DNA from: Buxus sempervirens
Taxonomy: Eukaryota; Streptophyta; Magnoliopsida; Buxales; Buxaceae
DNA: 64,000 nucleotides
Direction of reading: 5' to 3'
NCBI GenBank assembly: GCA_947561395.2
Contig: OX387186.1
Location: 46,705,220 to 46,769,219 of the forward strand
Under the pieces are notes generated by a model that was given only the letters and a program-made list of their open reading frames with translations, had not been told where the DNA came from and ran no database searches. This document shows, one piece after another, positions 1,333 through 45,919 of this stretch. How positions within the stretch are numbered: the stretch's first letter is position 1; each line of letters begins with the position of its first letter. The translations under genes and the position numbers were made by a program.

Positions 1333-2701
1333 TTGTGGATTTCAGCCTTTTGGTGTATTTGTTCATGTTTTTTACGTTTTTGTTTTGCTTGCTATTTTGT
1401 GTTTTTAGCATGTTTGATATGTTTTAAATCTGAATTATTGTTTTGCTTGCTATTTTGTATTTTTAAGCATGTTTGGTATGTTTTAAATCTGAATTATTGC
1501 TTAAAAGTTCATGGGGGTAGAAATATGCTTAATTTTGATTTATAGGATTGTTTCTAGAAACATGCGTAGGGGAGGTTTTGGTTTTGTTAAACCATGTTTA
1601 TTTCTTGCTGTATTTACATGATAGCATGTTTTAATTTTCAGCATGACTCTTTGATGTATTATTTGGTTGTATAACATGATCACATTTTTGGCATGTTTGG
1701 GTGATTTTTGTGAGCATGCTTAGGTGCTATAGGATTGCTTTGTTTACTTGTGTTTGTTTACTTTAAATATGCTCCTTTATTATGCCTTGGTTTGTATAAT
1801 GCATGGCTACGAAAAAGAGTGGCAAGGGGTAGGGACGTTGTGAATGCACCCAATTTTTACAAATGCACTGTGCACATTTTATTTTTTTACATAGCCTACC
1901 CATAACCTATAGGAAGTTGAACCCGAATGTGTGTAGCTTGGCGCAACGAGGTCGTTACTTCGGAAAACGAAAGTGAAAACATTCACCTTAGAACTTTAGG
2001 CTAATGATGTGATGACAATGTGGATCTGTGATTCGATTCTGATCATCATTAGGCTTGAGTTCTAAGTTGCCATTAAGCCAAAACCCAAAACCCCTACGCT
2101 TGAAGGTGGAGATACACGTTTTTAGCTAAAGTACACAATTACGTGGGAAAATGGGTTTGTAATCGAGGGAAGGCCGTTTGCATGGTTCACAAGCCAAGGC
2201 ATAATGTGGATGCCATATTGAAGGTAAACAAGGTAACAAGGTAACCTTAAATTTAGCATTATTTTCATGTCATGTAAGTGTCATGGTGTCCATCTATTTG
2301 GGATGAAATTGTTCCCAATAGGTAGGTATCTTAAAATTGGTGTAACCCATAGGAAGAGTTTTTAACTCTTATCAGAATTGATCCTACCCAAAGTCCATAT
2401 AAGAGGCAACCAAAGGTACAAAATCCCTGAATAGGGTGTCTAATTTGGAGGGAACGTGTGCCCTCTCGAGCAGGCATTTTTGCTAGTAGGGTTAAAGTCC
2501 ACTTTGGGACAGTTTAGAAGCCTTGAAAGGGTGAACCGTATGTTTGGATAAGCAATCCAAGTGATCAAATCATGTAAAAATGGAAAAAAAAACTCCAAAA
2601 CCCGTATGTACTACACAGGCAACCCTTGACCGCATTTTTTATGCGGGCAAGCCTTGCCCGCAATTTAAGTACGAGTAGGGCCGGACCGTAGTATATATAC
2701 G
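1333..2701 (+). other. Element A untranslated leader, first part
   Basis: There is no credible gene here. The sequence is T-rich with repeated GCATGTTT motifs. Bases about 1800-2000 are homologous, inverted, to 35270-35440 in the leader of element E, so this is conserved leader rather than host DNA. Bases 2600-2701 hold copies of the element's GGGCA/TGCCC palindrome, after which solo LTR D1 interrupts. Confidence 0.7.
2642..2662. repeat. Leader copy of the A-type palindrome
   Basis: The 8-bp arms TGCGGGCA and TGCCCGCA are separated by a 5-base loop. It is the same motif as in the LTR array at 25351-25484 and upstream of the antisense genes. Degenerate partial copies flank it on both sides. 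Confidence 0.75.
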
Positions 2702-10084: not shown

Positions 10085-10610
10085 GGGCAATATTATTCGT
10101 GATGTATTTTGATTACATGGTTGTATTGTGAGTTTTCTGGGTTTTCTGGAATATCATGAGTCCGAGCATGAGAGTGAATTACAACTTGAAATAAAATGTG
10201 TTTAGATTAAATACAAAACTAGTTGGGAAGTGTTCTAGGCATATTAGGAGACTAGTGGAACAATTACAGACCGAAAAGGATCGGCCAGAGATGGAGATCT
10301 CGAAATAACAGAGAGTCGAAAATCGTAGTGAGTATCCGCCGACTTGGCGCTCACTTAGGAAGTAGGCGCCCTTTTAATTTCACTACCCGCCGAGCTGGCG
10401 CCCACTTGGCGCTCAGCTCGCGCTCACTTAAAACCATACGCGATTCTCGCTCGAAGCCGGCGCCCATCTCACGCCCACTTCCCGCCCAGCTCGCGCTCAC
10501 TTAGTATCGAGTGAGCCCATTTTACGTGCCGAAATTGATTCTTGACTGAACCAAGGGGGATTTTGATGTCTTGGGGTTTATACCACTTAACCAATCTTGA
10601 GCCAGTTTTT
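10085..10610. repeat. Module with GC-rich GAGCGCC array shared with D2 in inverted orientation
   Basis: This block is homologous to the reverse complement of 42285-42830 inside D2. Both contain a cluster of GGCGCCCACTT / AAGTGAGCGCC units (here 10330-10505). Both also share flanks such as TTTTCTGGAATA, CTCGAAATAACAGAGA and GGGGGATTTTGATGTCTTGG. It is unusual, because C and D are otherwise unrelated LTR families. Confidence 0.8.
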
Positions 10611-18257: not shown

Positions 18258-20064
18258 CTAATCCCTATCCCCTAGCCGCTCTTCAAGCTGCCGAATCCGA
18301 GCCGCCTGAGTTGCAATAATCCCAGATGCTCCCTCTGCAGCCGGATCGCTTAGAAAAGATATGACTTCATCTGCCTGATCCTCATGGCCTTAAGGCTAGC
18401 TAAGGCGTCCTGATATTTCTTCTTCATCACTTGGGCCTCAAAGCGATGGGCCTGCCTCTACTCTCTAAGTTGCTCCTCAAGACCAGTATGGCGTGACACT
18501 TGCCCCTCAAGTTGCTAGATCTTCATGCCCCTAAGGCTGGCTAAAGCATCCTGATATTTCTTCCGCATCACTCGAACTTCAAAGCGACGAGCCTGTCTCT
18601 GTTCCTCAAGTTTCTTCTCCATAGCAATGCGGCAAGAAACCTGCTCTTCAAGTTGTCTCTCCAGATCAAGGCCTCGTATCCTAAGTTCACGGGCCTCTCG
18701 CACCCATATTTGTTGAAGCCGCTTGTGAGATGCTCTTTCAGACTCCAGGATGTCCTCAAAAGTAGGTGGAAGAACTGCAGGAGGGTCCTCTGGTATTGGA
18801 GCATGACTCTGAACTTGCTCCCTGATCCAGAAAAGATAATCCTTCACATGTGACTCAGAGAAAACTGGGCCCCGCAGAAAACGAGCATAGGACCACTCCT
18901 TCATTAATCGAGCATTCAACCCCATGGTGGCTGGTGTAAGTGGCCCAAGGAAGTCTCCATATCCATCTGGGATCATAATCCCCTGGGTCGCTCCAAACTG
19001 CCGAAGAACCCTCAAAGGAAGATAGAGAACATCAGATCTCAAGCCTACTAGGACCAGGAAGTTCCTATCTCTGAAGCTGATCACTGTCTCTGCATTGGGC
19101 TGATAAGTGTCAGGCCATCTCACCTGATTATCCTGGAGGGTGCCCAAGAAAGTGAACCAGCCCTGCTTGCTGCCTTGGATGTTAGGATACCCCCTGTTGC
19201 TCATCAAAACAAGAATTTTCATTCTTGTAGAAAAGCAGCGATCTATCTCCTCAATCTGACTTAGGTGGTCAAGTAACCAAAGCTGCACAAAAGGGGAAGT
19301 ATTTCAATTTAATTTCAATAAATCCAACTTCACATGTAAGTTGCAAAAAAAAAAAAAGATTTCACCTGTAGGATAGGGGCACATGCAAGGAAACGTTTCT
19401 TCTTTTTGAAATAGCAATCAGTCAGGGCCTGGTATATCTCTGCTAGGATCATAGGGGCCAACCTCTCACGTTCCTTAACCTGGCAGAAAACTGAGATGAG
19501 AGCCAAGTCAACCTGGTCGTCACCCCGCGGAAAGAGCAGCTAGTTGACCACTATCAAGGTCAAGGCATTAAACCTGGCCTGCTTGTCCTCACCCCTTAGA
19601 AGCTTCTCAGTGAGAAAATTCTTGGACAAGGTCAACAGTGTATCAAAATCCCCTAGGTCCTTCTTCCCTATATCCATAAAGGTGGATGCTTCCTTTTTGT
19701 AGCTAGGCTTAAGGGGCAGGTTCACTACTTTTTCAGAAAACCTTAGGCCAAGGATTCTTTCAATTTCCTCAATGGTAGGAGTCATCTCTTTGTCATCAAA
19801 GCGAAAGAGATTCAATTGAGGTTCCCAGTGTCCAATCACAGCCTCAATGATTTCCCATTTAAAAGGGATTTTAGGGATGTGTAGGATATGACCTAGGTGG
19901 ATGTGATCCCAACGAATCTCCTCTTCGAGGGTCATAGAGTTAACCCACCTATCATAGAAAGAGTCCACAACATTATACCTGGTGAGATTAGGAGGTTTTG
20001 ATCTAACAGGTTGTCTTACAGGAGGAGCTTCATCGGCAGAAGAGAACGGTACGAAGGAAGCCAT
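18258..20064 (-). pseudogene. Antisense gene 1 (aORF1): plant-mobile-domain-like protein with coiled coil
   Basis: It lies opposite to gag-pol, as in antisense ORFs known from Tat elements. Exon 1 is 20064-19366 (233 codons), the intron 19365-19283 (83 bp, GT-AG) and exon 2 begins at 19282. Near residues 75-115 it reads GHWEPQLNLFRFDDKEMTPT, then IEEIERILGLRF, a PMD (aminotransferase-like) signature. Exon 2 opens LWLLDHLSQIEEID and ends in a coiled coil rich in Glu/Arg/Gln. A 136-bp tandem duplication of the coiled-coil part follows the stop at 18515; after it a shifted frame continues to a TAG near 18258. An in-frame TAG at 19540 and further TAGs in the duplication kill it. Its function is unknown. 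It has its own TATA box and palindrome array. Confidence 0.82.
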
Positions 20065-20156
20065 GGAATCACCAAAGAAGCCAAGAAAAGCAAAAAAACG
20101 GAGGGCTCAGGGAGTTTTCGAGCTATTAAAAACATCACAATGACGTTCCCCATAGG

Positions 20157-20164
20157 TTTATATA
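20157..20164 (-). promoter_or_regulatory. TATA box of antisense gene 1
   Basis: The minus strand reads TATATAAA about 95 bp before the ATG at 20064 and about 36 bp downstream of the palindrome array (20200-20306). The spacing suits a dedicated promoter driving aORF1 away from the 3' LTR. Confidence 0.6.
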
Positions 20165-20199: not shown

Positions 20200-20306
20200 A
20201 TACGAGCACCGCGTGCACGTATAGAAATTACGGGCACCGCATGCCCGCATAGAAATTATGGGCACTGCGTGCCCGCATAGAAATTACGGGCACGGCGTGT
20301 CTACAA
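20200..20306. repeat. Four palindromes at exact 28-bp period upstream of aORF1
   Basis: Units start at 20200, 20228, 20256 and 20284. Each is a 23-bp imperfect palindrome of the type TTACGGGCA - 5 bases - TGCCCGCAT, separated by 5 bases (AGAAA in most). The motif and period are the same as in the element's LTR at 25351-25484. Confidence 0.88.
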
Positions 20307-20530
20307 TATAAATGCAATTTTTCGGGAAAAATACAAAAAAAAAAGGGGAATTTCAATTTCAATCCTTTCCCAAGCTTCACCTGTCCCTGCTTAAACATAT
20401 ATCATGCAATGGAGGTAAGAAATAAAAAAGAAAAGAGCATAAATGAAGAAAAATGAATCAAATTTCTTTTTATATATATATGGAAGCGTACATCATTTGT
20501 CAAATACAAGTGTAAATGAAGTATCCTAAT
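20307..20530. other. Spacer between the two antisense genes
   Basis: It is AT-rich and ends close to the 3' end of aORF2, with a TATATATA run at 20473-20480. No coding content was seen. Confidence 0.5.
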
Positions 20531-23367
20531 CTAATCTGCCTCTCCAGGTCCATCCCCACGGCCACATCCTCTACCTCGTCCACTGCCTTGAGGTCACCGG
20601 CGCTCGAAAACATGTGCCACAAGATGACAGGCGGTACTACAGGTCATCCTGCCCAAAATACACTAAATATCATACATCATATATAAAGGCATAAGGCCAG
20701 CAGTTGGATGATCATGAGGAACGTACCCCGAGGTATCTACATCTTCCGCAGGCTCCGCATCAGGGTTGGCAGGGACTGGCTCAATCACAGGCTCGGCGGC
20801 AGGCTCTGCACTCCCACGAGCCGCAGACTCGGAGGCAGGAATAGACGCCTCAGGAGCATTAGCATCAGGCCTCGGCTCCACAGGCTCAATAGAGGCCTCC
20901 TCTGTCACCACAGCCTCATCGGTAGGCTCCATCACAGCGGCATCCCCAGCCGACTCCATATCCATCTCAGCAGGTGCATCGGGAACGGTCTCTGATGCTA
21001 GGGCAGACTCTGGAATGTCCTCAGCAGTGGGAGCAACATCAAATGCAGTGTCAACCTCTGCTGCTGGCACGTCTGGGGCTCGAGGAGAAGTCACGAGCTG
21101 CATCAGTGACACGAAAAAGACCTCGCCGCGAGGATGTGTAAAATAAGGTGAAGAAGGACCGGCCATGTCATCCTGAAAATAAGAAGAAGAATTCTAATCA
21201 GAATAGGATAAGCAAATATAAGAAGCAAAATTTTAAAGGGGTAAAAGAAGTAACCTGAGTATGAGATGGACCCGCCTAGTCCTGTACACCAGAAGGACCC
21301 GCCTGGCCCTGTGCCCTAGCAAGCTGTCCCCAGAGGTCGCCAACGATGACAAGGAGGGCGTCCCGCTCAGTAATAGTGGCATCTCGTTGGCGCTCTATGT
21401 CAGCATACCGAGCTCGAATCTCTGCCAACTGAGCCTTCTGAAATAGAAGAAAGGGTGTCAGAAATGCCAAGTCAAATAGAATATAAGAAAGGAAGATCAA
21501 AGAGGGAAAGGCATACCGTGGTATCGTAGGCCTTGATCACTACCCCTCCTATCTCCGTGACTCCGCCACGGACAGGCATGGGTGGCATGAGGCACCCAAC
21601 TGAAGCCTTTCTAAACCAGGCATCATAGTCACCCTCCTCCAACAAAGTCTCTGCCTCCGTCCAATCTAAGAACTGAGCAGGCTCGATAAGCGTAGGAGGA
21701 AAAGAAGGGGTAGTATCGGAGGGATGACAGGAATCCAGGGCCCTCCAGTGTGCTGATAAAAGAAGCGCTCGCCGCAATACCAGATGCTGCCCATTTGACC
21801 GATAAAGAACTGATAGCGCTGATGCCTCTGGTCGGGGGCAAATGCATCGTCCCTAGTAGCATGCAAGGCCAGTACCTCGTGGATGTCTTCTAACCAGAGA
21901 ACGAACAGCTGAGAAACAAAAAAAGGAATTTTAGGCATATGATTCAGGAAAAGAAAAAAGGAAGAACTAAAGAGGTTTACCTCAGCCCCAGACAACCGGT
22001 CCAAACAAGCCCGGGCAGACCTAGGCCGACTCTTATCAGAGTCATGCTCCACATGGCACCATCCACGAGCGATAGGATACGTCTCCTCTGGTATCGTAGA
22101 GATAGGGCGGAAGTAGAGAATATACACCCTAGCAAAAAACTGCAAAAGAAGAAAAAAAAAGGGTCATAAGAATAAAAAAGGAGAAGAAGAGAAAGAAAGA
22201 ATAAAGAAATAAGTGTTTCACCTACAAGAAGGGCCAGAAAAATCTGCATCCGACTCCGGCACCCCGAGAGGTAGAAAGGCCACTAACGGCTCGACGCAGG
22301 CCAGCCAAAATGGTGCCAAAAATAAGCGGCCCCCAAGCGTACCTCCTCGCCCGTGGTAAATCTCCCAATAAGCTCAGGAAATGCGGGCTAACAGAGGTCA
22401 TGTCCTCTGGGAAAAAGCAGGACCCATCATGTAGAGGAAAACAAAGCGAAAAGCGAAGGGGAAGTCTACATGGCTGGCGGCAATCTGGCTGAAACCTCTC
22501 CCCCGGAAGGTCTCTCTCAACCAAGTCAAGGACAATCTAGGTCTCCCTCTATCCCAGGCCTCCGGGGCTACCGCCCCATATCCAAGAAGGGCAGAAATCT
22601 CCGCATAATCTGGCCTCACCATCTCAAGGATAATATCTCCAAACATCCTAATCCCAGTGATGAGTGTGAAGTCGGACGGTCGAATCCCGATCTCAATATC
22701 TGGAAAATGGAAGCTCAGCATCTCTGGGAAGAACCTCTCGAGCATCACTGCAATAAGAGCTCAATCCAAGCGCACATCTGGGATGGTGATGAAGTGGCCG
22801 AAACCAAACAAGCTCAACTCCTGGCGGAAGGATGAACTGCAACCTCCAAGAAATCTAATGAAACTGGCCTAGCTCCCTCGGTAATGGGACATAGGATACA
22901 CCAAAGGGATATCCACCCTAATATAGGCTGAGGGATGAGTCCTCAGGCCGTGTAGCAGGTCAGTATCCCTAATCTGTGCCATGATCCCCTCAGGGATATC
23001 CACTCTAGCCTGAGCCTCCTCCCTGCCACAGCCTCCTCTACAGCCCCCATCACAGCCTCCATCTTTGCCTCTAGCTCGTCGCTCACCACAACCCCTGCCT
23101 CGGCCAGGAGCCTCAACCACCGGCTAAGGAAACAAGTTGAAAGAAAGGATTAGGGTGAAGGATTTTGAGAGAGAAATCGAATTTTAGAAGAGTGAAGATT
23201 ACCTCTAGGGTCGACTCGCGTGAGCCCTCAAAAGAAAGATCAGGGACATCTGAATCAGAGTCCCTTTCGGCTCTCGAAGATGAGGCCACATCAGCATGAT
23301 CCCTCTGAACCCTAGAAGAAGAGGGCTCATCTGCAAGATCCCTAGAAGCTGATTGGATACGAGCCAT
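20531..23367 (-). pseudogene. Antisense gene 2 (aORF2): multi-exon plant-mobile-domain-like protein
   Basis: Seven exons with GT-AG limits: 23367-23203, 23123-22222, 22139-21981, 21908-21517, 21437-21255, 21172-20727, 20648-20531, with introns of about 72-82 bp. The start is MARIQSAS, where an acceptor abuts the ATG. Exon 1 is Ser/Asp-rich. Exon 2 has a Gly/Arg-rich stretch, then a PMD-like core: FHFPDIEIGIRPSDFTLITG, RPRLSLTWLRETF and RARRYAWGPLIFG. Exon 5 is a coiled coil (AEIRARYADIERQRD), exon 6 an acidic Ala/Pro/Glu-rich stretch and exon 7 ends GRGRGCGRGDG. TAG near 22870, TGA near 22767, TAG at 22224, TAG near 21273, TGA in exon 7 and frameshifts near 22405 and 21712 break it. The function is unknown; it may be a captured or long-domesticated cargo gene. 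Confidence 0.75.
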
Positions 23368-23379
23368 CTGCGAATTCAA

Positions 23380-24537
23380 ATCAGGGAGATGATTTTTTTT
23401 TTTTTTGAATTTTTATTGCTTCTGTTTTGCATTTTAATGGAGGTAATTGTTCGCAAGAATGCTTCAGAAGTTCCCGACTAAATCAGGAGTCAATTAAAGA
23501 AGTTTATCCTTTTGATCTCAAGAAAATTTTAGGATGCTCAATTATTTTCTAGTGGATTATTTCTTTTCTCTAGTTGCTTATGCTTAATCATCTCTTTTCA
23601 TTTTGGTTTCAGGACAGTCAAGGCAGATGGTAACAAGGAAAAGGCATGAGGAATTCAGCTTTCAGAGATTTATTGTATGCAGCTCTAAACAGTTGGATGG
23701 GATAGACCGATATGGATTGGGTCCTAAATCATCCCGGTTAAAGCAATGTGAAAGGGGTTTTTAGGCAAGCTTAGAACACTAAGTTCTTAAGCCATGCAAA
23801 AGGAGTTTTCGCAGAAGCAACATTCAATATAAAGAAAAATCACCAGGGTAGCATTGTAACAGACATAGCAGTACCTCATGCATAAAGCTAGAGTCTGAGA
23901 TATCAGAGGATTATGCAAAATCAGAAACTCAACATATCAAGCTAAGAGTAATCAGTTGGCAAGAAATTTAGTCAAGGCATGCCCAAATTGGTGTGAAGTA
24001 TGTACAAAAGCTCTAAAGCATATGCATGCAAAAGTCAGGGTAACAAGGAAAATACCCACAAGACTTGAGTTGATTCAGGTCATACCAGTCATGGCAACAT
24101 ATCAAGATTGGATTCAGATAAGAACTATCAACATTCAAAGAATGGAAAACCAGGCACCCAAATCAAATGGATTCAAAAACATGTGGACATCTGGAGTTTC
24201 TAACAATAGATATTCAAAGAAATCTACAGAAACAAAGTTTCATTCAAATATAGATTGAAGTTCTGAAGTTGCAGAAATCTAAGGCAATAAAATTATCATG
24301 AGACAAGTTGGAGTTTGGGAACTCTATCAATTAGAACAGAGGATTCAAAAGTCAACAAATTATTGTTAGCAGAATACCCAAACATTCAGATAAGGGCCAA
24401 AACAGATATATCTTGCAGAGTGAGTGAAAGTATCATACGGCCAATTGAAAATTAGAGTTCAAAATCAGCATTTCATGTCAATCAAGAAGGATGCAATCGG
24501 GATTTTAATTGCATACAGAAATCAAATCGTGCCTCAC
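23380..24537. other. Element A 3' region: putative aORF2 leader intron
   Basis: There is no recognised gene. A poly-A/T run is at 23392-23407. The plus-strand ORF 23956-24258 has no domain and no family motif. It is best read as an intron of the antisense transcript and 3' untranslated sequence of the sense transcript. Confidence 0.5.
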
Positions 24538-24760
24538 CGGAATGACAAAACACAGTGAACAGCGAAAGCTCACTGTCTCCAAGGGATTTGAATCGCCGGA
24601 GATAGTTACAGTCGCTGGAGAAGAAGCTATTACCGGAGAAGAAGACGTCGTCGGAGAAGAGGAGTTACTGTCGAAGATCAAAAACCGTAAGAGGAGGTAC
24701 GGTCGCAGAGGGTTTGGAGAGGAAATACGAGCAAAAGAAATGGAAGAGATATTCAAGTTC
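24538..24760 (-). other. Probable 5' exon of antisense gene 2
   Basis: On the minus strand a Ser/Thr/Pro-biased, CT-rich stretch ends at a donor-like CCG/GTGAGG (intron from 24537). The next acceptor, TTCGCAG at 23374-23368, abuts the aORF2 ATG. That predicts a 1.17-kb leader intron. It looks like a plant 5' UTR or transit of coding sequence captured from a host gene. The plus-strand frame across it (24509-24937) has no recognised domain. Confidence 0.45.
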
Positions 24761-24821
24761 GCAAATAAAAAGCCCTTAAAACCTGTAGAAGAAGCATGGG
24801 CAACAGAAGCCCGCAAAGGTA

Positions 24822-24890
24822 ATACGGTCATGCACGCCCGTGTTCAAATTGTGGTCATCACTTGCCCGCAATACAAATATGGGCAAACCA
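24822..24890. repeat. Degenerate 28-bp palindrome units upstream of aORF2
   Basis: Units near 24822 (ATACGGTCA / GCCCGTGT) and 24849 (TTGTGGTCA / TGCCCGCAA) are spaced about 28 bp, with a half unit ATATGGGCA near 24878. This is the same motif as at 20200-20306 and 25351-25484, lying just upstream (minus strand) of the probable aORF2 first exon. Confidence 0.65.
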
Positions 24891-25217
24891 GAAAATTGCA
24901 TTTTTCATCATTTTCTCCATACTTTTCAGAAGATTAATGTCTATATTAATTGTAAATTGCAAGAATTGCCACTTTATCCACTTTTGTTTTAAAATTTGTC
25001 ACAAATCTCACTTCATAGCCACGAGTGCTCAATGAGAATAAAGAGGAGGATTTGCCCCTTAAGGTTAAGGACTTTTCAGCAAATCCTCCACACAAATTCT
25101 TTTGTTCCAAAATCATCCTTTTAATCCTTGCAAAGTGCAATTAGTTAGACAAAATATCAAAACGTGCATTTTGTGGGTCTTTTTGCTCTCTGTTAGTAAT
25201 TGGTTCCAATTACCAGC

Positions 25218-25231
25218 AAAGAGGAGGCAGT
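25218..25231 (+). other. Polypurine tract of element A
   Basis: AAAGAGGAGGCAG runs directly into the LTR start TGTAGACACC. The same AAAGAGGGGCAGC tract precedes the element B 3' LTR at 40871-40883. It would prime plus-strand DNA synthesis. Confidence 0.85.
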
Positions 25232-25350
25232 TGTAGACACCCCAAATTGCACTACAAAATGAGAAAATAATTGAAAATATGTAATTAGGATTTGAAACAG
25301 GTCAAAAAAAGTGTAAAATTTGGTCAAACATGCAGTGCCCGTACTTTGTT

Positions 25351-25484
25351 TGCGGGCTGGTCGCGCCCGCAATTTATATACGGGCATGCTGTGCCCGTAT
25401 TAACACTGCGGGCAAGATACACCCGTAATTTATATACGGGCATGCCGTAACCGTATTGAGAATGCGGGCAACACACACCCGCAT
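25351..25484. repeat. Five palindromes at about 28-bp period in the U3 of LTR A
   Basis: Units start at 25351, 25378, 25407, 25434 and 25462. The best unit, 25378-25400, has perfect 9-bp arms ATACGGGCA and TGCCCGTAT with a 5-base loop. Others alternate TGCGGGC / GCCCGCA. The array ends 225 bp upstream of the TATA box. Confidence 0.92.
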
Positions 25485-25709
25485 TATATATACCGACACG
25501 GGGGTTTTTGTGCGAATTTATCCTTTTTTGATTTCTGAGCCTTATGTGCACCCAAATCTCTCTCTGAGAGATTCAAATCCTCTTGTTTATCCATTCGAAT
25601 CCTCTTATTTATCCTCTTTGGTGCAATGGATTGGCATTATCTCTATTTTTAATTCAATCTGAAACCCTATCTTGGCAAACACTGGACCAACCATGCCCCT
25701 GGGTTTGCC

Positions 25710-25717
25710 TATAAATA
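25710..25717 (+). promoter_or_regulatory. TATA box of LTR A
   Basis: TATAAATA lies in the context TTGCC..GAGGGCC, a form shared with the LTRs of E and F. Transcription would start about 30 bp downstream. Confidence 0.75.
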
Positions 25718-27094
25718 GAGGGCCTCTCCTCAAGCAAAGGGTCATTAATTTGAAGTCTGAAAAGCTCCAAGTGAAGAAGGGAATCCCTGCTTTTCTGCTA
25801 TCTCAAACCAGGTAAGTCCCTTTTCTATTTTATTTTCTGTTTTCAATTCTAGAAAGTCTAATTTTCTCCATTGCTGTAGAATAAGGCCTAGTTTATATTT
25901 GTATTCCCAAACCTGCCTCCAAGTACCTCAAGACTCCTCTATAGCCGTAAAACGTGAAGAGAGAGCTAGGGGAAAGGGGAACAGGTGGATTCTTAGAATA
26001 GAACCCTATAATCTGTTCTTCTCTTCTTTTTATAGAATAAGGCCATTGATTGTGTTTGTATTCCCAAACCTACCTCCAAGTACCTCAAGACTCCTCTCTA
26101 GCCGTAAAACGTGAAGAGAGAGCTAGGGAAAAGAGAATAGGTGGATCCGCAGGGTAGACCCCCATGTGCTATAATCTGTGATATGTGGTTTTATTACTCT
26201 ATGGATGTTATGTAAGTGTTTTATTTTGAATCTGGAGGAATCCTATGAATCCAGGTTGTTTACAACATGAGATCCCCACTTCTTTCTATAGTTTGGATTT
26301 TTCACACCTTTGCACCTACATCACTGTTTTCTTGATTTTCTTAGTATTTGGCTAGGATTCTGGATTTACCATGATCTATATGGTAGATCTAAAACCAAAA
26401 GCCTGAAAGTAACCTATAGGGTTTCATGATGTGATTTTGAAATTGTTTTAATCTTGGAGAAAGGATCCTATGGTCTAAACTCTCCCTTTTGATGTTTTTT
26501 CATCAACATGGGTTGAGTGGGGGTTCTATTTCTCCACTAATGAGAGATCCGGATCAGATCTGTACTCCAAATAAATTTCTTCTTCAATGTTTTAATCAAG
26601 AGATTTAATTTCAATCTGGTTTTTCAACTTTTTAATGGTTTAGCCTAAAGCTAGTTTTTCAGGTTTCTCTTTAGGTTGGTTTTCTTTGATTTTTATCGTG
26701 AAACCCTTAGAATGGTATGATCATATTGAAGGTTCTAAATTAATCGGGATATTCATATAAAAAACCATACACTTTTGTTATTTTTATGATTTTTCCTTTA
26801 TTAAGCAAGCCTTCTTTATTTTTAACATGAACAATACCTGGCAACCACCTTGTGTGGATGAATAGGGGTTCCTAACACCTTCCCTTGTTCATAACATAAT
26901 CCCCTTTCCCATCTCCAGTTGTTTTTGTTTTGTATTTTAAATTAGAGTTATTTTTACTCTAATTTCTGTCTCCTTTATTTTATTTGATATTTCGGTGTCC
27001 ATTCACACCTAAACAGAATGGTGTCGACTCTTTGTTTTAATGAATCCCGTGTGATGATTAGGAAGTCATTAAATTGATTTTTCCATGTCTCACA

Positions 27095-27549
27095 GTTACC
27101 CAATAACCCGAATTGGGCCTTGGGCTTGACTTAAGCCCAACATGGATTCCACTGGGCCTTCCAACAGGGCCCATACCAGACCCACTTCCGTAATTGATAA
27201 AAAGATAAAAATCAAATAAAAAGGGGACCCACACCCTCAGCGGTCCCCACTAGACCAAATAAGTGTGCATGCTGGCCTAGGAATTGGATGAGAATTAAGT
27301 TGACTTAAACCAGGGAGACCCACGGGACCCGTCAACCAATGGGGCGGGCTAAGGTGTCTTCAGACTTCCCTAGACGTAACCGAGAACTTGCTCAGATCTC
27401 CAAAAAGCCGCAGACCAGAATAATTAAGCCCGGATAGGTGCCCCTTTTGTATCTGCTTGCACCTCTCAGGCAGTGGCGACTCCAAACAGTCCCAAGGCAA
27501 GCATCATTATGCATGCGCCTCTTGTACAGCCCGAAATCGGGTGCACACA
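27095..27549 (+). repeat. 3' end of element B 5' LTR
   Basis: It begins immediately after LTR A and matches 45402-45855 closely: TTGGGCCTTGGGCTT, ACTGGGCCTTCCAACA, AGCCGCAGACCAGAATAATT. It ends GTGCACACA. The 5' part of this LTR lies left of element A, outside the window. Confidence 0.88.
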
Positions 27550-27552
27550 GCT

Positions 27553-27571
27553 TGGCGACTCCGCTAGGGAC
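27553..27571 (+). other. Primer binding site of element B
   Basis: TGGCGACTCCGCTAGGGAC lies three bases after the LTR end and is the same type as in element A. Confidence 0.8.
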
Positions 27572-29274
27572 CCTCAACCCAGTTGGACCCTGGTTCAAAG
27601 AATCAACTTTGATGGATATAGATCGGTCTAGGTATTACTTGCTGTCTCACCTTAGTGAGATGTGGAATTCGTGTAATTGCGTGATCTGGGGAGTCTTGTC
27701 AAAAGGACGAGATAATTGCCTAAGGAAAGTGGAATTTAAGTGGCTCCCAGTGACCCTCCACTTACCTGGGGACTCTCCCAGAATATCGTATTGCGTGTCA
27801 ATTCTGCATGTCACTATAAAGAGATGGCAGGGAACCCTTTACCAATCAAATATCCAAAACTCACCCAATTAGACACAGCACTCTACCCAAATGCACACAC
27901 GGGCACTCCACCACACCGTGGATGGTTTTTTTTCTTTACAAACTACATGGGGTGACACGCACGAGGGAGTCTGCATGGTTGACCCGATTTAAATGATTGG
28001 ACAAAATGGAATGCCGCTATTCTTCACCAAAACCTAGACCTCTTTAGAAGCCACCCTTCTGTTTCGATAAACTTATATTTGGGATGGTATTAGCCCCATG
28101 CTCCCGTGGCTTGTCAGGGAAAGTAGGGTAAACCCATCTCCCCAGGTTTCTAGATTCCTTAGCGCCACTGGCTTCATGATGTGGTACGCGAGGGTATAGT
28201 ACTTGGCTCAGACCCTTGTACGTAAATGTCTCGGGCTGGGTACCCTTTCCCCACCTATTGTTTCTGATAAACCTCAGCTTTACGAATGCAGTGAGCCATG
28301 GGCCTTGACCCATTGAGTCCCCCGGGAGCACTCTGAGTCCAAATTGGCCTTTTGAGCAGATGAAAGCCAGAAGCAAACCAGATCAAAACAGGGGCAACAC
28401 CCTAGGTCTTGGAATTCTGCTTACCTGCCTTGAAGCAAATTTGTACCCTTCCTCTGGGTTCCCAAAAGCTCTTAAGATGAAATTTTGCAAATTTTGAATA
28501 TCATGTAATTTCTACCCTTGCTGGCAAATTATCAATTCTTTTGGTCTGACACCTAAAAGCAAAGGCAGATGAAAAAAGGCTGATCCGGACTTAGATGTGC
28601 TTCCATACACAAGTATGTCTAAGAGTCGTGCCTCATGGGGCACCAACCTTTTTAGGACTATGCACACACTTTTTAAATTGTACACATTTTTGTTTGAATG
28701 GTAATATTATTTAACTTTTGTTTTAATTTTGTGTACGCATTCTCATGCATCAAGTGCACACTTCAAAGATCATTTGCATAAGTATGCTTTATCAAATCAT
28801 TTCCAAAAGAAAAAAAAAGAGAGAATTCATAAAATTTTCAAAGATCTGCATTGCCTTTGTATATACATCAAACCTGCCTTGGGGCAAAAAGTGGCTCCAA
28901 TTCTTTGTGCTTCAACCAAGTTTCAACTTAATCAAAAAATTTTGAGATCAATTGGTTGTGAACCAGCCCAAAATAATGAATTGGAAAAATTCAAGGACAA
29001 GTTGGATCCTTGCCGATGGCCATCGGTCAAACTAAAGAAAAGAATAAATAAGGGAAAAAGAAAACTGAAAAAAAGAGAAAAAAAAAAAAGAAAGTCAATT
29101 GAGAAATCAACTCTTGTAGTTTCCCGAATCTTGGTGGAAATTAATACTTTGCATTCCCACCATCCCAAATCTTTAATTATTTCTTAGAACTCCCTAAGAC
29201 TAATCCTTTAGAAACCAATGCTCCACAGTTCCGAAATCCAACTAAATAGAAGTCGGCTCCTATGGTTTCCGATC
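27572..29274 (+). other. Element B leader
   Basis: No gene. Bases about 27693-27790 (with GGACGAGATAATTGCCTAAG) match a stretch in the 5' region of the hAT element at 62600-62700. Bases 28050-28380 are ordinary leader. The run 28800-29100 is A-rich. Confidence 0.6.
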
Positions 29275-29775
29275 CCAGAGACTCTTTCTTTACCTCCGAA
29301 GTGGCGGTTCTAATCTTCTACCCTGTCCTCCGAAGTGGCGATCCAAAAAAAAAATCTTTTCTCATGACCTCCGAAGTGGCGGTCCAAAAAAAAAAAAAAA
29401 GGTTTTTTCTCATTACCTCCGAAGTGGCGGTCCAAAAAAAAAATCTTTTCTCATTACCTTCGAAGTGGCGGTATAGAAGAGACTCTTTTCCTTACCTCCG
29501 AAGTGGCGGTTAAAAGGAAACCTCCGAAGTGGTGTTTAAAAGAGATCTTCCCCCTTTACCTCCGAAGTGATGGTTCAAAAATCATCCTTTTTCCTTACCT
29601 CCGAAGTGGCGGTTCGAAAATCAACATTTTTCCTTACCTCCAAAGTGGCGGTCCTTTTCCTTACCTCCGAAGTGGCAGTTAAAAGAAATCTTCTCCCTTT
29701 ACCTCCGAAGTGGCAGTCAAAAACAAACCATCCTTAGGGACTCTCCCCTTGTCTCCGAATGGTGGCTAAAAAGAG
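29275..29775 (+). repeat. Minisatellite upstream of gag in element B
   Basis: A dozen or so units have the core CCTCCGAAGTGGCGGT joined by A-rich and CTTTTTCC-type spacers of varying length (period about 35-55 bp). The core can pair CCG with CGG around AAGTGG. Its position, immediately upstream of gag, parallels the arrays in A (5872-6595) and E (33843-34150), but the sequence differs. Confidence 0.88.
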
Positions 29776-30061
29776 ATCAAATTATCCCCCAGGTTGTTGA
29801 ATGATGATTAAATTGAAAAATCAATCAAGTGGAAATTAACTCTCCAAGTTTCCACATCTCAATCAAATCACAAAAAAATAAAAATAAAAAATATATAAAA
29901 AAATAATAATAATAATAATAAATCTGCATTGGCATACATCAACATGCATTATATTTTGATTTAATCTGAATTCTTTATACTAATTTGTGTTTTTTATAAC
30001 GAAAGGTACCAAGATTGCGTATCGCAGCCCGTACCTCCTACGTTCAAGAAGAAGACTCCAG
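29776..30061 (+). other. Element B leader end with A/T microsatellites
   Basis: Low-complexity AATAAT and AAAAAT runs (29870-29920) come first, then AAAGGTACCAAG at about 30003, the equivalent of the acceptor and GTACC block before gag in A and E. Confidence 0.5.
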
Positions 30062-32476
30062 ATGGATCCTGCTGAAGGACTTGAGCAAGCACTCCATCCA
30101 CCTCCTCAGGAGCAAGAAAAGATGGAGGAACATCCAGTGATCACAGGTCTTAACCAGCAGATGGCCAACATTACGGCCATGATAGCAAACATGATACAGC
30201 GAATGGAAAGGCTGCAAATGCCACCCCAGTTTGTACAACCCCAATAGCAGTTGCCGATACCCCCACAATAGCCGGTACCTCCTCAGGAACCACCAGTACC
30301 ACCCCCACAGCACTTGACTCCTCAACCATTGCCAGTCGTCCCAGAGCAGCTACCGCCTACCATTCCGCAAATGAACTTGCAACCGCCAGAGCAGCCAGTT
30401 CCTCAACCACTACCGGTCCAAGCGGAACATCACTTGAGGATTCTGGCGCCTTTTGTTATTCCAGAACAACAAGTGATGGGGATGGGGCACGAAGTAGAAG
30501 AGTTGCGCCGAGCACAAGAATTGACCAATATGCAGGCCGATTTGCAGGCCCTAAAGGAACACGTGCATAATGCAAATCGAGGTTCTGTGCCAAAAGAAGC
30601 CTCACTGGATAGGTTGAGTTTCTTCCCTGATTTGCAACTTCCACCAAAGTTTAAATGTCTGGATCTTGTAAAATTCGATGGAAGCGGAGATCCGTTGTTG
30701 CATCTCAGAGCATACTATGGAGACATGTGCTAGTATGCACATGACGAGAGGATCATGATCCAATTCTTCCAACGCTCGTTGACAGGATCAGCGCAGAAGT
30801 GGTTTGCTAGTTTGGATAGGAGCCGGATTAGGACGTGGGATGATTTGGTAAGCACATTTTTTGAGCACTTCAAATTTAACACTGAAGTCTTGCCTACTCA
30901 GATGGAGCTACAAAAGATGACCAAGAAAAGTACTGAGTCCATTCGAGAGTATGCTAAGAGGTGGCGGGAGATGGCTGCCATGGTTCAACCTTCCATGCTG
31001 GAAAAGGAGATGGTGACCCTGTTCATCTCAACATTGGGGCATCCCTATTACACACTGCTGGGGCAGTTTTCTGCAAGTTTCGCAGACCTGGTGGTTATAG
31101 CAGACAAGATAGAAGACGGAGTTAAATCCGGCAAAGTTGCAGGATTTCCTGAGTAGAAAAGGAACCCTGTTAGTGGGAGAGGCATGGAAAGGAAAAAAGA
31201 GGACGAGACTGTGAACTACGTCCAGCCAAACAGACCTTTCCACTTTTCGGCATCTGACAGGAGGGAAAATCAGAATACTGGTTAGGAAACACAGGCTACA
31301 AGATGGCCTAGGTGGACCAAAGAGGAATATGAAGCAAGAATGACTAGACTATTTACACCCCTCCCCTATCCGATAGCAGAGCTGCTTCCAACTCTACTAA
31401 AGAAGGGATATTTGCAGAAAAAGCAGCCAACCCACCAGCTGACCAATAATCGCAATTACAACGCTAATGAGCGCTGTGAATATCACATGGGAGCTCTTGG
31501 TCATCATACTAACCGTTACTAGGACTTGAGGCATGATATACAAGATTTGATCAACAGTAAGCGCATCTCGGTCGATCCCCTAGCAACAACTCCTGCAGCA
31601 GGGGTCCAGACTAATCCTCTTCTGGACCATAACAAGGCAACTACTAGTGGGCCAGTAAATCTTGTGAACAATTGTGATGGAAACCAGGGGCAGTTCAACC
31701 CATCCGTACTCATTGGACGGCCAGGTCAGATAATAAGGGTGTACCTCCGGGAGGAAACCATATCACTGGCTGCGGTTGCCATCTTGAAAAAAGATGATGA
31801 AGACACTCCATTTGCTCCCACTAAGGAAGTTAAGGCTGAAAAGGGCTCGGATGTCTACGTCTACGCTCTAGAGGACGACCCTCAAAGCAGTGAAGAGGTC
31901 ATAGGACCACATCACCAGAACAATTGCGGATGGATCAGTGATTCACCATCACCTTCAGCCAGAGAAGGAGCGGGCAGCTCTGCAGGGTTCTGGTATCAAG
32001 ATAGGTCACTTGTCTTAGAATCATCAGTCGATAGCTCAGGAGTCCCTCCTCAAATGTCTGCTAAATGGCCTCTTGATTGCATGTCTGCCACATCAGATAC
32101 GAATATATACTCCCTCACCGATCCACCTTCAACTGGATCCGATTATGACTCCGTCTCGTTTCAGATACGTGAATGGTATGACCTCCCTCATATCACAGTA
32201 GAAGGAGTGCCATCATCTACTCTTGAGCTCATGGATCTGCCTGACCCATACGATAGCCAGGGTGAGAACCCCGAAGACACTTCATCAGAGGAGGAGGATC
32301 TGGATGAAGACATGGAAGATGCAGCGGCAACAGATGAAAGTGATCCAGACAGGTCCATCAATATGATCACGGTTGGTGGGACTAAACCGGAGGAGGTGGT
32401 TGAAGTCGTCAAAGGCAAGTCACCACCTAGGAACTGGAGCTATGTACCCTTTGCAACTCGCAAGGCTGAAATATGA
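30062..32476 (+). pseudogene. gag: Element B gag with long acidic tail
   Basis: A single frame from ATG 30062 to 32476 is broken only by six TAG codons: 30245, 30269, 30731, 31154, 31283 and 31520. Order: Gln/Pro-rich N-terminus; a gag domain (about 30640-31150) with FFQRSLTGSAQKWFASLD, FKFNTEVLPTQMELQ and YAKRWREMAAM; the Cys/His motif CEYHMGALGHHTNRY (about 31480); then about 300 residues ending in an acidic region (EDTSSEEEDLDEDMEDAAAT). No protease or RT motif follows. Restricting the damage to CAG- or TGG-type changes shows the frame was intact at insertion. Confidence 0.88.
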
Positions 32477-34150: not shown

Positions 34151-34482
34151 TTTTTTGTTGCTGAATTTTCTCAGTTTTCAAGTTCAAAAGCTTGATTGAA
34201 ACATGTTTGAATTGAATGGACATCAAAAAATATGACACCTCAATTTGCCCTAATGAATCTTGAGGGTAAAATGTAGATTTGTGTTTCAAAATTAGGTTAA
34301 ACCCTTAGTGAGCCTTTTTTATTTTTTATTTTTCATTTTTTTTTGTTTTAAATATATATATATTTTTTTACTTGAATTATCTTTCCATATCCTCTTTGGG
34401 TGCTCACAAATTGTTTACAGTGCCTTAGGCATTTTATCTTCAAAAGAATTGGGCTAAAAAAGCAATTTGACCATTTTCGGGC

Positions 34483-34630
34483 TGTATCCGACATGATATG
34501 TCGGCTAAGGCAATGTCTTATTGTATCCAATATAAATGATCAGATACACACATATATCCTTTTTGCCGATGAGTTCTGTCGGATAAGAATAGAATGCTGC
34601 TTAACCGACCTGAGTTGTCAGTTAATGCCG
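34483..34630. repeat. Leader copies of the E-type palindrome
   Basis: CCGACA - TGATA - TGTCGG at 34488-34504 is the clearest. Degenerate copies follow near 34520, 34562 (TTGCCGA..TCGGATAA) and 34600 (TTAACCGAC..GTCAGTTAA). It matches the LTR array of the same element at 38623-38730. Confidence 0.75.
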
Positions 34631-34639
34631 AAATGGCCT

Positions 34640-36358
34640 TTTTGACTCATTTTTTCACCAGATTATGTTATTTTCATTCCCACTTGATGTTCACCTTGAC
34701 TTGGCCTTTAAATCCTGCCCCAAATTGGGACTTGACATCATACTTGCTAAAATTCACAAATTTATGAGGGTACTTGTACCCTCCAAAGTTATACACCAAT
34801 TCTTGGATTTTGTACACTTGGTTGCCTCTAGCCTGGACTTTGGGTAGGATAACGTCTAAGCAGAGTTAGAGACTCTTTCTATGGGTTACACCGACCTTAG
34901 GCTACAAATGTTTTTGGGAAAAATTTCATCCCAACCATATGGACACCATGGTTTTTAATTTACATGAAGATAAAAAAAACATGGCTTTACCTTGCCGCCT
35001 TGTGTTACCTTCAATATGGTATTCATATTACCTTGGCCTGTGAAACATGCAAACGGCCTTCCTACATTTACACCCAATTCCCCAAACGCAATTGTGTACT
35101 TTTAGCTAAAAACGTGTTTCTCCACCTTCAAGCATATGGTTTTTGGGTTTTGGCTTAATTGGCAACTTAGAACTCAAGTCTAGTGATACCCGGAATCGAA
35201 TCACAGATCCCATTGCCATCACATCATTGACTCAAATTCTAAGGTAAATGTTTTCACTTTCGCTTTTCGAAGTAACGACCTCGGTGCGCCAAGCTACACA
35301 CATTCAGGTTCAACTTCCTATAAGTAATAGGTAGGCTGTGCAAAGTGTTTATAGTGCTCAAGTGCATTTTGAATTTTGAAGTACATTCACAACGTCCCAG
35401 CCCCTTGCCACTCTTTTTCGTAGCCATGCATACAATTCCAAGCCAAGGCATATGACATTATATTGAAAGCAAAACATAAGCAAGCAAGGTAGTAAAAGCA
35501 ACTCAATATGCACATAATTACTACATACCCAAAAGGCATCATACAAGCATGTTATCATATTGTACAAACAACAATTAAACCATGCCAAACATGCTTGAAA
35601 CCCAAAAGCATTCCCCAAATTTCCAGATTTCATGCTCTTTTTTCATGCTCAAAGTGTATCATTTATACTCCAAATTGAAGCCTTAAAATACAGCAACTAC
35701 TTGACATGGTACAAGAAGGGTTTTGGTTAGGTAAAAACATGCTTGACAATTCCCACATTCCCGCTGAATTTCTGGGTTTCAATGCTCTCCATTTTATGAT
35801 CAAAGCATCAATTATACCCCAAATTGAAGCCTAAAATTTCAGCAACTAACAATATGGTACAAGAAGTGTTTTGTTGGGGAAAACATGCCTGAAAACCACC
35901 AAAATAGCTACTGAATTTCCAGATTTCATGCCCACAATTTTCCTTGATCAATATGTTATTGGAACCCAATTTAAAGCCTAAAAATACAGCAACTAATCAC
36001 ATGACCTAAAAGAGTTTTAATTTAGGGAAAACATGCTAGAAGGCACCCAAAACATCCATTAAACTCCTAGATTTCATGCTTTCATATTTCATGTTCAACT
36101 CATGGCATAAAAACTCAAGTTAGAGCATGTTATCACAAAATACATCCAAATCATGTTTCAAAATAGGCTTCTTCTAGACACATTTCTAGACGAAGTCAAG
36201 CAACACATACATGCTTTTATCTATGTAAATTTCAAAGCATTCCAATCAGATTTGAAATACCACACTATGCACAAATAAAGTAAGCAAAATAGCAAGCATT
36301 CAAAAGTAAAAAAAAAAAAAAAGCATGAACAAATACACAAAATGGCTTAAATCCACAA
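34640..36358 (-). other. Element E leader
   Basis: Noncoding and AT-rich. Bases 35270-35440 match element A leader 1800-2000 inverted. Several loosely repeated blocks occur at 35590-36130 (AACATGCTTGA, ATTTCATGCT, AGCCTAAAA..CAGCAACTA), roughly 120-140 bp apart, which look like old tandem duplications. Confidence 0.65.
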
Positions 36359-38622: not shown

Positions 38623-38730
38623 TTGTATCCGACAACTCAGGTCGGATACAAGCAATTCTCTTTGTATCCGACATTATCTGTCGGATACAATAAAGATCCT
38701 TTGTATCCGACATTATCTGTCGGATACAAA
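38623..38730. repeat. Three palindromes at exact 39-bp period in LTR E
   Basis: Units begin at 38623, 38662 and 38701. Arms are TTGTATCCGACA and TGTCGGATACAA, perfect 12-bp in units 2 and 3 (loop TTATC) and 11-bp in unit 1 (loop AACTCAG). Confidence 0.95.
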
Positions 38731-43427: not shown

Positions 43428-43856
43428 TCCAACGCAACCGAGTTTGCTGGAATCGGGGTCCGGGTGAGGAAGTTGTGAGCCGGTCAAACTTTTGGGGGAG
43501 CGAAAGTTGACTTTTTGCTCGACCCCGATTCAACTACCTAATTTGATCCCAGTGGATAGTGGGTTCTGAGCCAATTCCAACGACACCAAATTTGCTGAAA
43601 TGGGACATCAGACGAAAAAGTTATAGGCAGTTGAAGTTTCAAGAAAACTGCCCATGTGGCAAAACAGCAACAAAAAAGCAAAATAAATGAATAAAATAAA
43701 TAAAATAATTGTTTATGGAAAATATCTTAATTTTTAATAATATTTTAATAAAAAAATCTTGTTTTTTATAATATAATAATCAAAAATCGGATGAGAATCT
43801 TTTTAAAAATCAAATTTGATAAAAAATTTCAAATCCAACATTTAAAAAACGTGCTC

Positions 43857-44033
43857 GCCCGTATTTGAATTATGGGCAAGGCATGCCCGCACTTCAAATA
43901 CGGGCAAGCCTTCTAGAAGCGGGACACGCGTCCCGTACGACGACAGCTGGCTGATTCGGCGAGATTTGAAAACGTGTGTATTTCGCCCATATTTGAAGTA
44001 CGGGCAAGGCATGCCCGGATTTCAAATATGGGC
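43857..44033. repeat. Two nested palindromes upstream of the LTR B TATA box
   Basis: Hairpin 1 (43857-43905) has 13-bp arms GCCCGTATTTGAA and TTCAAATACGGGC. Hairpin 2 (43985-44033) has GCCCATATTTGAA and TTCAAATATGGGC. Both enclose an inner GGGCA-AGGCA-TGCCC palindrome. The two pairs differ by a compensating G:C to A:T change. A GGGAC/GTCCC palindrome lies between them. Confidence 0.93.
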
Positions 44034-44047
44034 ACGAAAATTTTTTC

Positions 44048-44055: not shown

Positions 44056-45919
44056 GGGGGGCCAGCACCCCCATTTGAACAACCTAGTCCCCTTGGCTGT
44101 CCCCCCTCTCCTTCTCTGCCCCTTGTTCGTCCAACCCCTCTCCAAGCTCTGCCAAAATCCCACTAGCCCAGAAAAATTCCCGTTTTGCCCCTGAACTGCT
44201 GCCTTTACCATACCCCTTTTTACATTCTTTTTTTCACCCCTTTCAACCCAAAGAGAGGAGGTCTCTTTCAAACCCATTTTTGGAAATCTAAAGGAGCGCG
44301 GAAGCGCTGCCCAAGTTTTTCCTCAACTCTAATCCCTTTCAACCTAAAGTGAGAGAGGCTCTTTCAAACCCATTTTCGGAGAATCAACGGAAGCGCACAA
44401 TCGCTGTCGAAATCTCGTGGAGGACCTTAACACATTGGATTAAGAAGTTAGTGGTGGGGTAACACTTCTGCTAACTTTTTATTTGACATGTATAAAAGTT
44501 TTCTTATTTGAATAGCTTTAAATTCTTCTTATTTTGTCACTAACATATTTGTTATGTTTGGCATATCATGAGAAATCCCATATAAAATTGGTATCTAAGT
44601 GCAAAAATGGGAGGAGAGTAGTTACAAAGTCTAAAGGGAAAATACTTATCTTAACATAATGCTCGATAAGGGAGGGGTTTTGTCCTCCTTAAGAAACTTG
44701 TTGTATCCCTAAATCTACTTCCCTCATTCCTTTCCCATTGAGCACAGTTTTACATACAGAATATTGGCTTAACAAGATCAAAAGAAGTGTAAAACACTTT
44801 TCTTTGACAAGTGCTAAAGAAGGAAGACATACAAAGCGAGGATGAGGCTTGGTCATCATTTTGAAGATACTGAGAAATCCGACAGAAGCCGCCGGAACCT
44901 CCAAGAAGGCAACCAAAATGACCCGGGCAGAAATCGGTGCAAAACTGTAAAATCAAGCAGATGCCTGTATTTACTATACGGTCAGGCATGCCCGTATTTG
45001 TTATACGTGTAGGCCTAAACTGTATTATATTTAAACGCTAGACTAGACCTTAAAGTAAATACGAGCAAATTAGAGAATAACTAAAAAATCATCTTTTTTG
45101 GACCTGGTTGAACCCAATCCGACCCATCTTTGTAAGACTTGACCCATTGGGCTTCTTGGACTGTCCTAAGCCCATTTTGAGACAGTGGGCCCAATGGGCC
45201 CACCAAGGCTTCGTGGGCCCTCCAACGAGGCCCATATCCCGTCCAGCCCAACCAAGGCCCGTTTTCAACAAACGGACCTAGGGCCATCTGATTAATTGCT
45301 CGTGGGCCAAATCCAAGCCCATTGGGCCCTAAAAGCTTTTGACTCACTAACCTTGTAAATATTCAATAAATCCTTAAACCAAATAGCCAAAATCAAAGAA
45401 GGGTTACCTAATAACCGAAATTGGGCCTTGGGCTTAACTTAAGCCCAACATAGATTCCACTGGGCCTTCCAACAAGGCCCATACCAGACCCAATTCCTTA
45501 ATTGATAAAAAGATAAAAATCAAATAAAAAGGGGATCCACACCCTCAGCGGTCCCCACTAGACCAAATAAGTGTGCATGCTGGCCTAGGAATTGGGTGAG
45601 AATTAAGTTGACTTAAACCAAGGAGACCCATGGGACCCGTCAACCAACGGGGCGGGCTAGGGTCTTCGGACTTCCCTAGACGTAACCGAGAACTTGCTCA
45701 GATCTCTAAAAAGCCGCAGACCAGAATAATTAGGCCCGGATAGGTGCCCCTTTTGTGTCTACTTGCACCTCTCAGGCAGTGGCAACTCCAAACAATCTCG
45801 AGGCACACATCATTTTGTATGCGCCTCGCGTATGGCCCGAAATCGGGTGCGCACAGTCGGAATGCAATCTGCCAAGATTGATACACTGGGTCATCACTAC
45901 CGAGAAAAATAATTTGCTA

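Follow-up and report, generated by a model that had tools for sequence, protein, structure and literature searches.

Tandem palindromic arrays at the sense and antisense promoters of Tat/Ogre-like retrotransposons of Buxus sempervirens: candidate family-specific operators

The DNA considered here, referred to as the window, is a stretch of 64,000 nucleotides from Buxus sempervirens (contig OX387186.1, positions 46,705,220 to 46,769,219 of the forward strand) containing nested Ty3/gypsy elements; one of them, element A, carries two genes, aORF1 and aORF2, on the strand antisense to its gag and pol. The A dyad, a 21-bp palindrome with the sequence TRYGGGCA-N5-TGCCCRYA, is repeated every 28 bp in the U3 region of the long terminal repeat (LTR) of this element, in its leader and upstream of both antisense genes. 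At the U3, the leader, the aORF2 promoter and all 14 aORF1 promoters of family C, a different dyad is found, TATCCGAC-N7-GTCGGATA, with 39-bp steps, and a third dyad, AACCGYAC-N5-GTRCGGTT, distinguishes family E. Sequence comparison suggests that these arrays are operators of a dimeric regulator acting on the sense and both antisense promoters, one private operator per family, and this interpretation is given a probability slightly above one half (about 0.52).

The initial annotation described a 23-bp palindrome with a spacer of about 5 bp, repeated at 28 bp in the LTR U3 (five units), at the aORF1 promoter (four units), upstream of aORF2 and in the leader. All four sites exist, and the unit positions bear out the presence of one motif at the sense and both antisense promoters of element A; the repeat is real as well, and is better described as a 21-bp dyad with a 7-bp spacer. 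The array upstream of aORF2, originally confined to 24822-24890, proved to be longer but weaker, and the supposedly single leader copy at 2642-2662 scores 16/16 but is one of three units. The arrays are as follows.

25351..25483, no strand assigned: A dyads in the U3 of the 3' LTR of element A; 5 units at 25351, 25379, 25407, 25435 and 25463, exact 28-bp steps
20201..20305, minus strand: A dyads upstream of the aORF1 TATA box; 4 units at 20201, 20229, 20257 and 20285, exact 28-bp steps
24795..24898, minus strand: A dyads upstream of aORF2; about 4 diverged units at approximately 24795, 24823, 24850 and 24878, two of them scoring at least 14/16
2614..2690, no strand assigned: A dyads in the leader; 3 units at 2614, 2642 and 2670, 28-bp steps, scores 13, 16 and 12

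The U3 array, which has an extra right half-site in the 28-bp slot before its first unit, does not adjoin the LTR TATA box (25710) but precedes it by about 227-359 bp, and the aORF1 array is 36 bp from the aORF1 TATA box (20156-20164, minus strand). Window-wide, 14 sites score at least 14/16, whereas 60 first-order Markov sequences contained 0.17 such sites on average and never more than 2; a two-unit 28-bp pattern gave 6 matches in the window versus none in 100 shuffles. The A repeats are genuine, occur much more often than chance would allow and sit at promoters. Every dyad arm holds a CpG. When 13 units were compared across five arrays belonging to element A and to family B, described below, the likeness between arrays was 0.78 for the arms, 0.36 for the centre and 0.45 for the spacer; it is the dyad at a fixed step that is conserved, and not a copied block. 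The spacer is often identical within one array, e.g., TAGAAAT occurs three times at aORF1, and the LTR array has a 56-bp period.

The host genome (676.5 Mb) was searched for the dyads and for homologues of the antisense genes. The exact cores were found 4568 (A), 5483 (C) and 2469 (E) times, versus 94, 0 and 2 times, respectively, for the reversed-pattern controls. A search with the exon of A-type aORF1 yielded 5084 candidates at first look, 150 of which were scored (84-100% identical). Among the 30 best A-type aORF1 loci, 29 contain an A array (at least two units scoring at least 13/16) and none contains C units; the lone locus without an array, L025, has a promoter cut by an insertion. The units follow each other at 28 or 56 bp in 28 of these 29 loci, and L017 has one step of 30. 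Units are present in 26 of the 27 A loci with a TATA match, the nearest unit starting 56-58 bp before the TATA box; L011, L012 and L017, which had no TATA match under the first pattern, were examined separately. When 31 spacings between an A half-site and an A-type TATA box were allowed, 285 matches were found genome-wide, and among the 100 of them listed, 98 span 59-60 bases and two span 63; for the C half-site and the C-type TATA box, with the same number of spacings allowed, all 42 places share one identical span. The A and C places are related copies, so this phase between array and TATA box may be inherited. The U3 array also occurs in the A copies L010 and L064, the A-type leader of L046 has four units at 28-bp steps, and the place homologous to the region upstream of aORF2 contains one unit scoring at least 13 in L064 and two in L065. 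The first four A-motif loci listed comprise two B-type LTRs (L007 and L008), an A-type LTR (L010) and a lone match without an array (L009).

Family C, on sequence comparison, is a close sister of family A; the LTR start is nearly the same, the leader block is 80% identical (776 columns), gag is 83% identical over 96 aa, and aORF1 identity is about 77%. Element C, present in the window, has the following features.

39269-36380, minus strand: LTR of element C, with a TATA box at about 38463
38623..38729, no strand assigned: C dyads in the U3 of element C; 3 perfect units TTGTATCCGAC-N7-GTCGGATACAA, 39-bp steps
34480..34655, no strand assigned: degenerate C dyads in the leader of element C, directly past the block homologous to the A leader

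The degenerate leader array occupies the place where A carries its own units. Another C-type element, L043/L044, has the C dyad in the U3 (four units), between the LTR and aORF2 (two units, some 560 bp inward from the LTR border, the LTR of L043 starting at about 8682) and at the aORF1 promoter (three units), and no A unit scoring at least 13/16 was found in it. The search for C-type aORF1 gave 4955 candidates; 150 were scored and 14 loci were taken, all of which contain three to four C units, with steps of 39 bp except for one of 38 and one of 40, and none of which contains A units.

A wider search for genes with the DUF7745 domain, which aORF1 contains, gave 5752 candidates, 118 of them scored, and 20 promoters were picked for variety. 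Six related DUF7745 genes possess four units of the E dyad each, arranged in two pairs with 28-bp steps; L088 has two E units 39 bp apart in a different context, and L081, L084 and L085 have the A dyad at DUF7745 promoters. L090 and L091, situated about 5 kb upstream of the E-type aORF1 promoters L074 and L077, carry the E dyad in the U3 (six units each, at least 12/16) and, between the LTR and the next gene, three E units at exact 39-bp steps, at the putative place of the aORF2 promoter; neither A units (at least 13) nor C units (at least 12) were found in these two loci. Separately, the DUF7745 genes of L070-L073, L079, L083, L086, L087 and L089, many with open frames of 484-498 aa, are devoid of TATA-linked palindrome arrays in the examined stretch and perhaps belong to another family.

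Promoters having at least two units that score at least 13 are distributed as follows (A/C/E units).

A-type promoters: 29/0/1 of 30
C-type promoters: 0/14/0 of 14
E-type promoters: 0/0/6 of 6
A2: 3/0/0 of 3
L088: 0/0/1 of 1
Other DUF7745 genes: 0/0/0 of 10

The sole E entry among the A promoters is L017, with two weak E-like matches at the array edges; single E matches of at least 12, found by an un-oriented scan in 31 of the 44 A and C loci, are put down to one conserved edge sequence of the A promoters. At the aORF2 promoter, the dyad of the own family was found in 3/3 A copies (the window, L064 and L065), 3/3 C copies (L043, L066 and L069) and 2/2 putative E copies (L090 and L091), a tally that omits L062, L063, L067 and L068 (4/10 copies), where the place is lost to nested insertions or stretch ends. 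The identity of the 42-aa aORF1 core, for the loci where the core was found by pattern (e.g., without L049), is 0.94 for A-A, 0.82 for A-C, 0.58 for A-E and 0.55 for C-E. On these counts, the putative operator is swapped in concert at every promoter examined, and the families barely mix dyads. The co-evolution of the dyad with the antisense genes, which the initial annotation proposed to look for across families, is seen in three families of the host genome.

The dyads are also present in elements other than those discussed above. In the window, they are found in family B.

43856..44038, no strand assigned: A dyads and half-sites in the family B LTR, 28-bp steps in two blocks, upstream of the TATA box at 44048
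44976..45025, no strand assigned: degenerate A-type dyads of family B, about 0.9 kb downstream of the B TATA box

The A dyad itself stands at 43871 and 43999 in the first of these arrays, and L008 contains a better array at the place corresponding to the second. Family B is a Tat-like gypsy family whose gag is only 43% identical to that of A over 285 aa. The D-like LTR nested in L046 (1-2170, reverse complement) has TATCCGG-type, C-like dyads at 39-bp steps just before the TATA box and again about 0.9 kb downstream, the same two places as in B. Taken together, the A dyad in B and the C-like dyad in the D-like LTR mean that the operators are not strictly lineage-bound; possible explanations are borrowing of the A and C regulators, host proteins as the factors, or an origin of the dyads before that of the families. 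An equally wide occurrence of the repeats in unrelated elements had been named in the initial annotation as evidence against a shared regulator, and this is what was found in part, family B having the motif, yet B is still a Tat-like gypsy. An interpretation of L046 as an A/C mosaic element was dropped, as its TATCCGG arrays sit in the nested D-like LTR. The remainder of a B-family element (LTR tail, primer-binding site (PBS) and gag at 30275-31429) lies at 27095-32476, element A having been inserted into its LTR, and the uninterrupted counterpart of the insertion site is near 45397-45410. A search of a viral collection with the two-unit pattern gave 6 contigs, judged to be unrelated to the plant arrays: the motif of L001 lies in a GTAGGTTGGGCACCCCGTGCCCAAC repeat between open reading frames (ORFs), L003 and L004 show the same motif spacings, and L002, L005 and L006 have one match each. 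The GTAGGTTGGGCACCCCGTGCCCAAC repeat of L001 is presumably a bacterial repeat of the repetitive extragenic palindromic (REP) type.

The products of the antisense genes are the candidate binders encoded by the element itself.

18518..20064, minus strand: aORF1 pieces, DUF7745/plant mobile domain (PMD), followed by a stretch with coiled-coil periodicity; frame interrupted
20663..23412, minus strand: aORF2 pieces, a weak PMD match, a coiled-coil-like stretch and an acidic tail; multi-exon, frame interrupted

DUF7745 was recognised in aORF1 with 35.8 bits (cut-off 26), and it is through this domain that element A possesses an extra antisense ORF with a plant mobile domain; PF10536 (PMD) was found only below the cut-off in the aORF1 and aORF2 pieces (18-20 vs 34.9 bits). 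PF04195 (Transposase_28) was not found in five aORF pieces (Pfam, E<=1), and a comparison of aORF1 with viral contigs revealed no relatives. The aORF1 frame of the window copy is broken by a stop at 19540 (minus strand); most of the scored genome copies are stop-free in the matched part. Identity in the aORF2 core is 72-84% within A but 44-48% between A and C, for which aORF1 reaches 75-78% and the integrase 83%. In the window copy, the aORF2 tail carries a net charge of -32; an RG-rich end is common to A and C copies. As the aORF2 core diverges faster between A and C than aORF1 or the integrase, and given the coiled-coil-like stretch, the acidic tail and the RG-rich end, aORF2 is probably the better candidate for the regulator, which is association and not proof.

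Long tandem dyads with a fixed step and a fixed distance to the TATA box fit the needs of a dimeric DNA-binding protein, and the joint exchange of dyads at three or four places suggests a single trans factor in each family. The arrays would then serve as tandem sites for a sequence-specific, probably dimeric protein, which would jointly control the LTR, aORF1 and aORF2 promoters of one family. This binder may be encoded by the element, most likely by aORF2, with a PMD-like core, a coiled coil for dimerisation, an acidic tail and an RG-rich end; the aORF1 product could be its partner or an alternative binder. Like the VANC proteins of VANDAL transposons, the bound protein would activate or un-silence promoters of its own family in a private manner, and the CpG in the arms could make binding methylation-sensitive, an on/off switch. 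The steps of 28 and 39 bp differ by 11 bp, about one helical turn, and neighbouring units could face the same way. A more far-reaching version, offered tentatively, is a private code: a dimeric PMD protein encoded by each family would read that family's dyad at all promoters and lift silencing from the entire element, with protein and operators shifting specificity together at family splits, and B and the D-like LTR of L046 would carry A or C operators so as to be driven by a foreign regulator.

Several observations weigh against a family-private, element-encoded regulator. The copies are related, so the 29/30 and 14/14 counts are not independent; the independent events are few, with at least two replacements among A, C and E. 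Half of the 20 DUF7745 promoters have no A, C or E dyad within about 630 bp. The distant family B carries the A dyad in its own LTR, and the D-like solo LTR of L046 bears a C-like one. The Pfam scan of the aORF pieces revealed no known DNA-binding domain, and no PDB relative of the aORF1 piece was found. The acidic charge is much weaker in the C-type aORF2 pieces (net -3 to -5, the pieces including the basic end), and the fast change of aORF2 may merely reflect a lack of constraint.

Enhancer repeats in plant LTRs recruit host factors, and host transcription factors may bind these arrays too, each family having recruited a different one to all its promoters. The distribution of the dyad types across distant families (the A dyad in A and B, the C-like dyad in C and the D-like LTR) fits this explanation, as does the lack of a recognised DNA-binding domain in the aORF pieces; on the other hand, sister families have exchanged three long dyads, with arms of at least 8 bp, at three or four promoters together, for which one private factor per family is more economical. 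We know of no plant factor with such long sites, a motif library not having been searched. On balance, recruitment of host factors appears rather unlikely, although it is the strongest of the alternatives. A role of the arrays in marking the element for host silencing or boundary factors, i.e., as small-RNA or methylation targets, is much less probable. Tandem repeats can be sources of small interfering RNAs (siRNAs) and targets of RNA-directed DNA methylation according to the cited part of PMC10398659, plant mobile domain genes yield phased siRNAs in tea (PMC10673657, in the part cited), and a CpG is available in each arm; nevertheless, to hold a silencing target at a constant distance from the TATA box, or to exchange it at all places together, would be of no benefit to an element.

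The dyads could also act in the genomic RNA as hairpins, i.e., packaging, export or dimerisation signals, since all arrays lie inside the full-length transcript (the U3 at its 3' end) and many units are perfect dyads. In 111 A and 55 C units, two of the 18 arm pairs covary, the A pair 6-16 (0.002 of shuffles) and the C pair 10-18 (0.014), but 14 of the other 16 pairs have no significant pairing excess, the closest being at 0.057. Wobble pairs are commoner on the strand of the antisense genes (A 103, C 46) than on that of the genomic RNA (A 77, C 29), and the genomic strand of the 13 window units has 6 G-T versus 10 A-C; in addition, hairpins leave the phase to the antisense TATA boxes unexplained. 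The RNA-hairpin explanation is disfavoured and has little support, being slightly less probable still than silencing marks. Functionless arrays made by neutral tandem amplification and copying between promoters, to which the identical spacers inside one array would correspond, are the least credible, because between arrays the arms are alike while the spacers and centres differ, and because the distance to the TATA box is kept.

As for the general organisation of element A, sequence comparison and a domain scan, respectively, gave the following features.

1-1311 and 25232-27094: part of the 5' LTR and the 3' LTR of element A, the latter with the TATA box at 25710
7183-8130, plus strand: gag of element A, with pol domains as far as 17199

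The plus-strand domains Retrotrans_gag, RVT_1 and rve are arranged in LTR-element order, with rve after the reverse transcriptase; element A is a Ty3/gypsy element of the Tat/Ogre-like kind. As regards the second, archaeal-type RNase H by which Tat/Ogre elements are recognised, the scan gave a single RVT_3 piece with a score below the cut-off. The PBS of element A is TGGCGACTCTGCTTGGGAC, which may be a match to tRNA-Arg. Immediately past the leader array, the TGTAACGCCCCGAACCCGG sequence at 2704-2760 resembles the start of another LTR, and several overlapping tandem repeats with 38-53 bp units occupy 5865-6588 in the pre-gag part. A solo LTR of family D (8324-11587), flanked by the 5-bp target duplication GGGAC, is inserted between gag and the protease region; its U3 contains G-box-like CACACGTGGCA repeats, and GCGCTCACTT clusters lie in its R/U5 region (10340-10520). 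Elsewhere in the window, coding pieces with ankyrin repeats and a PGG domain (50416-51698 and 60595-61170, minus strand) are probably host genes or fragments. An Rfam search gave no match, and a tRNA search found none.

The HBZ protein of human T-cell leukaemia virus (HTLV) regulates the sense LTR. Maize Grande gene23 and HTLV resemble the present system in having an antisense gene in the 3' part, with its own promoter and a suspected or known regulatory role, but the cited sections describe no tandem operator common to all promoters (Vicient and Casacuberta 2020, PMC7264820). In Retand elements, antisense TRP28 ORFs are likewise located between pol and the 3' LTR, and many elements have family-specific tandem arrays, stated to be of unknown function; a regulatory, DNA-binding role was proposed for the antisense proteins (Vicient 2025, PMC11963269, in the part cited). 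The differences are that no operator common to the LTR and antisense promoters is described there, and that the proteins considered here are of the PMD/DUF7745 and not the TRP28 type. Ogre elements, 57% of which contain a PMD, are also very large, with expanded noncoding regions and tandem repeats, but the cited sections give no role or operator for their PMD ORFs (Neumann 2019, PMC6317226). The role of antisense genes in plant LTR retrotransposons is treated as an open question in the cited parts of PMC11963269 and PMC7264820. No such operators in LTR retrotransposons turned up among the matches listed in searches of open-licence papers, and no wider claim of novelty is made. With a candidate cis-regulatory code of which a single genome offers three natural variants of specificity, the function of the antisense genes becomes directly testable.

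The closest parallel is offered by the VANDAL transposons of Arabidopsis, whose VANC proteins bind family-specific motifs in the noncoding tandem repeats of VANDAL, the motif differing between related families; the VANC21 motif is the 9-base YAGTATTAY (PMC5735166, PMC10398659, in the parts cited). Both systems have short tandem motifs in the element's own noncoding DNA, with different motifs in related families, arrays of changing copy number and candidate trans factors encoded by the element. VANDAL, however, is a Mutator-like DNA transposon, whereas the carrier here is an LTR retrotransposon with PMD-type antisense candidate genes, and its putative binding sites are palindromes that precede promoters and follow each other at 28- or 39-bp steps; because carrier, protein domain and site symmetry differ, the element A system is not a member of the VANDAL/VANC group. 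Should the element itself encode the binder, VANC-like sequence-specific self-activation would reach the LTR retrotransposons, which are among the largest fractions of plant genomes, and the thousands of dyads dispersed through this genome would provide foreign operators ready for use.

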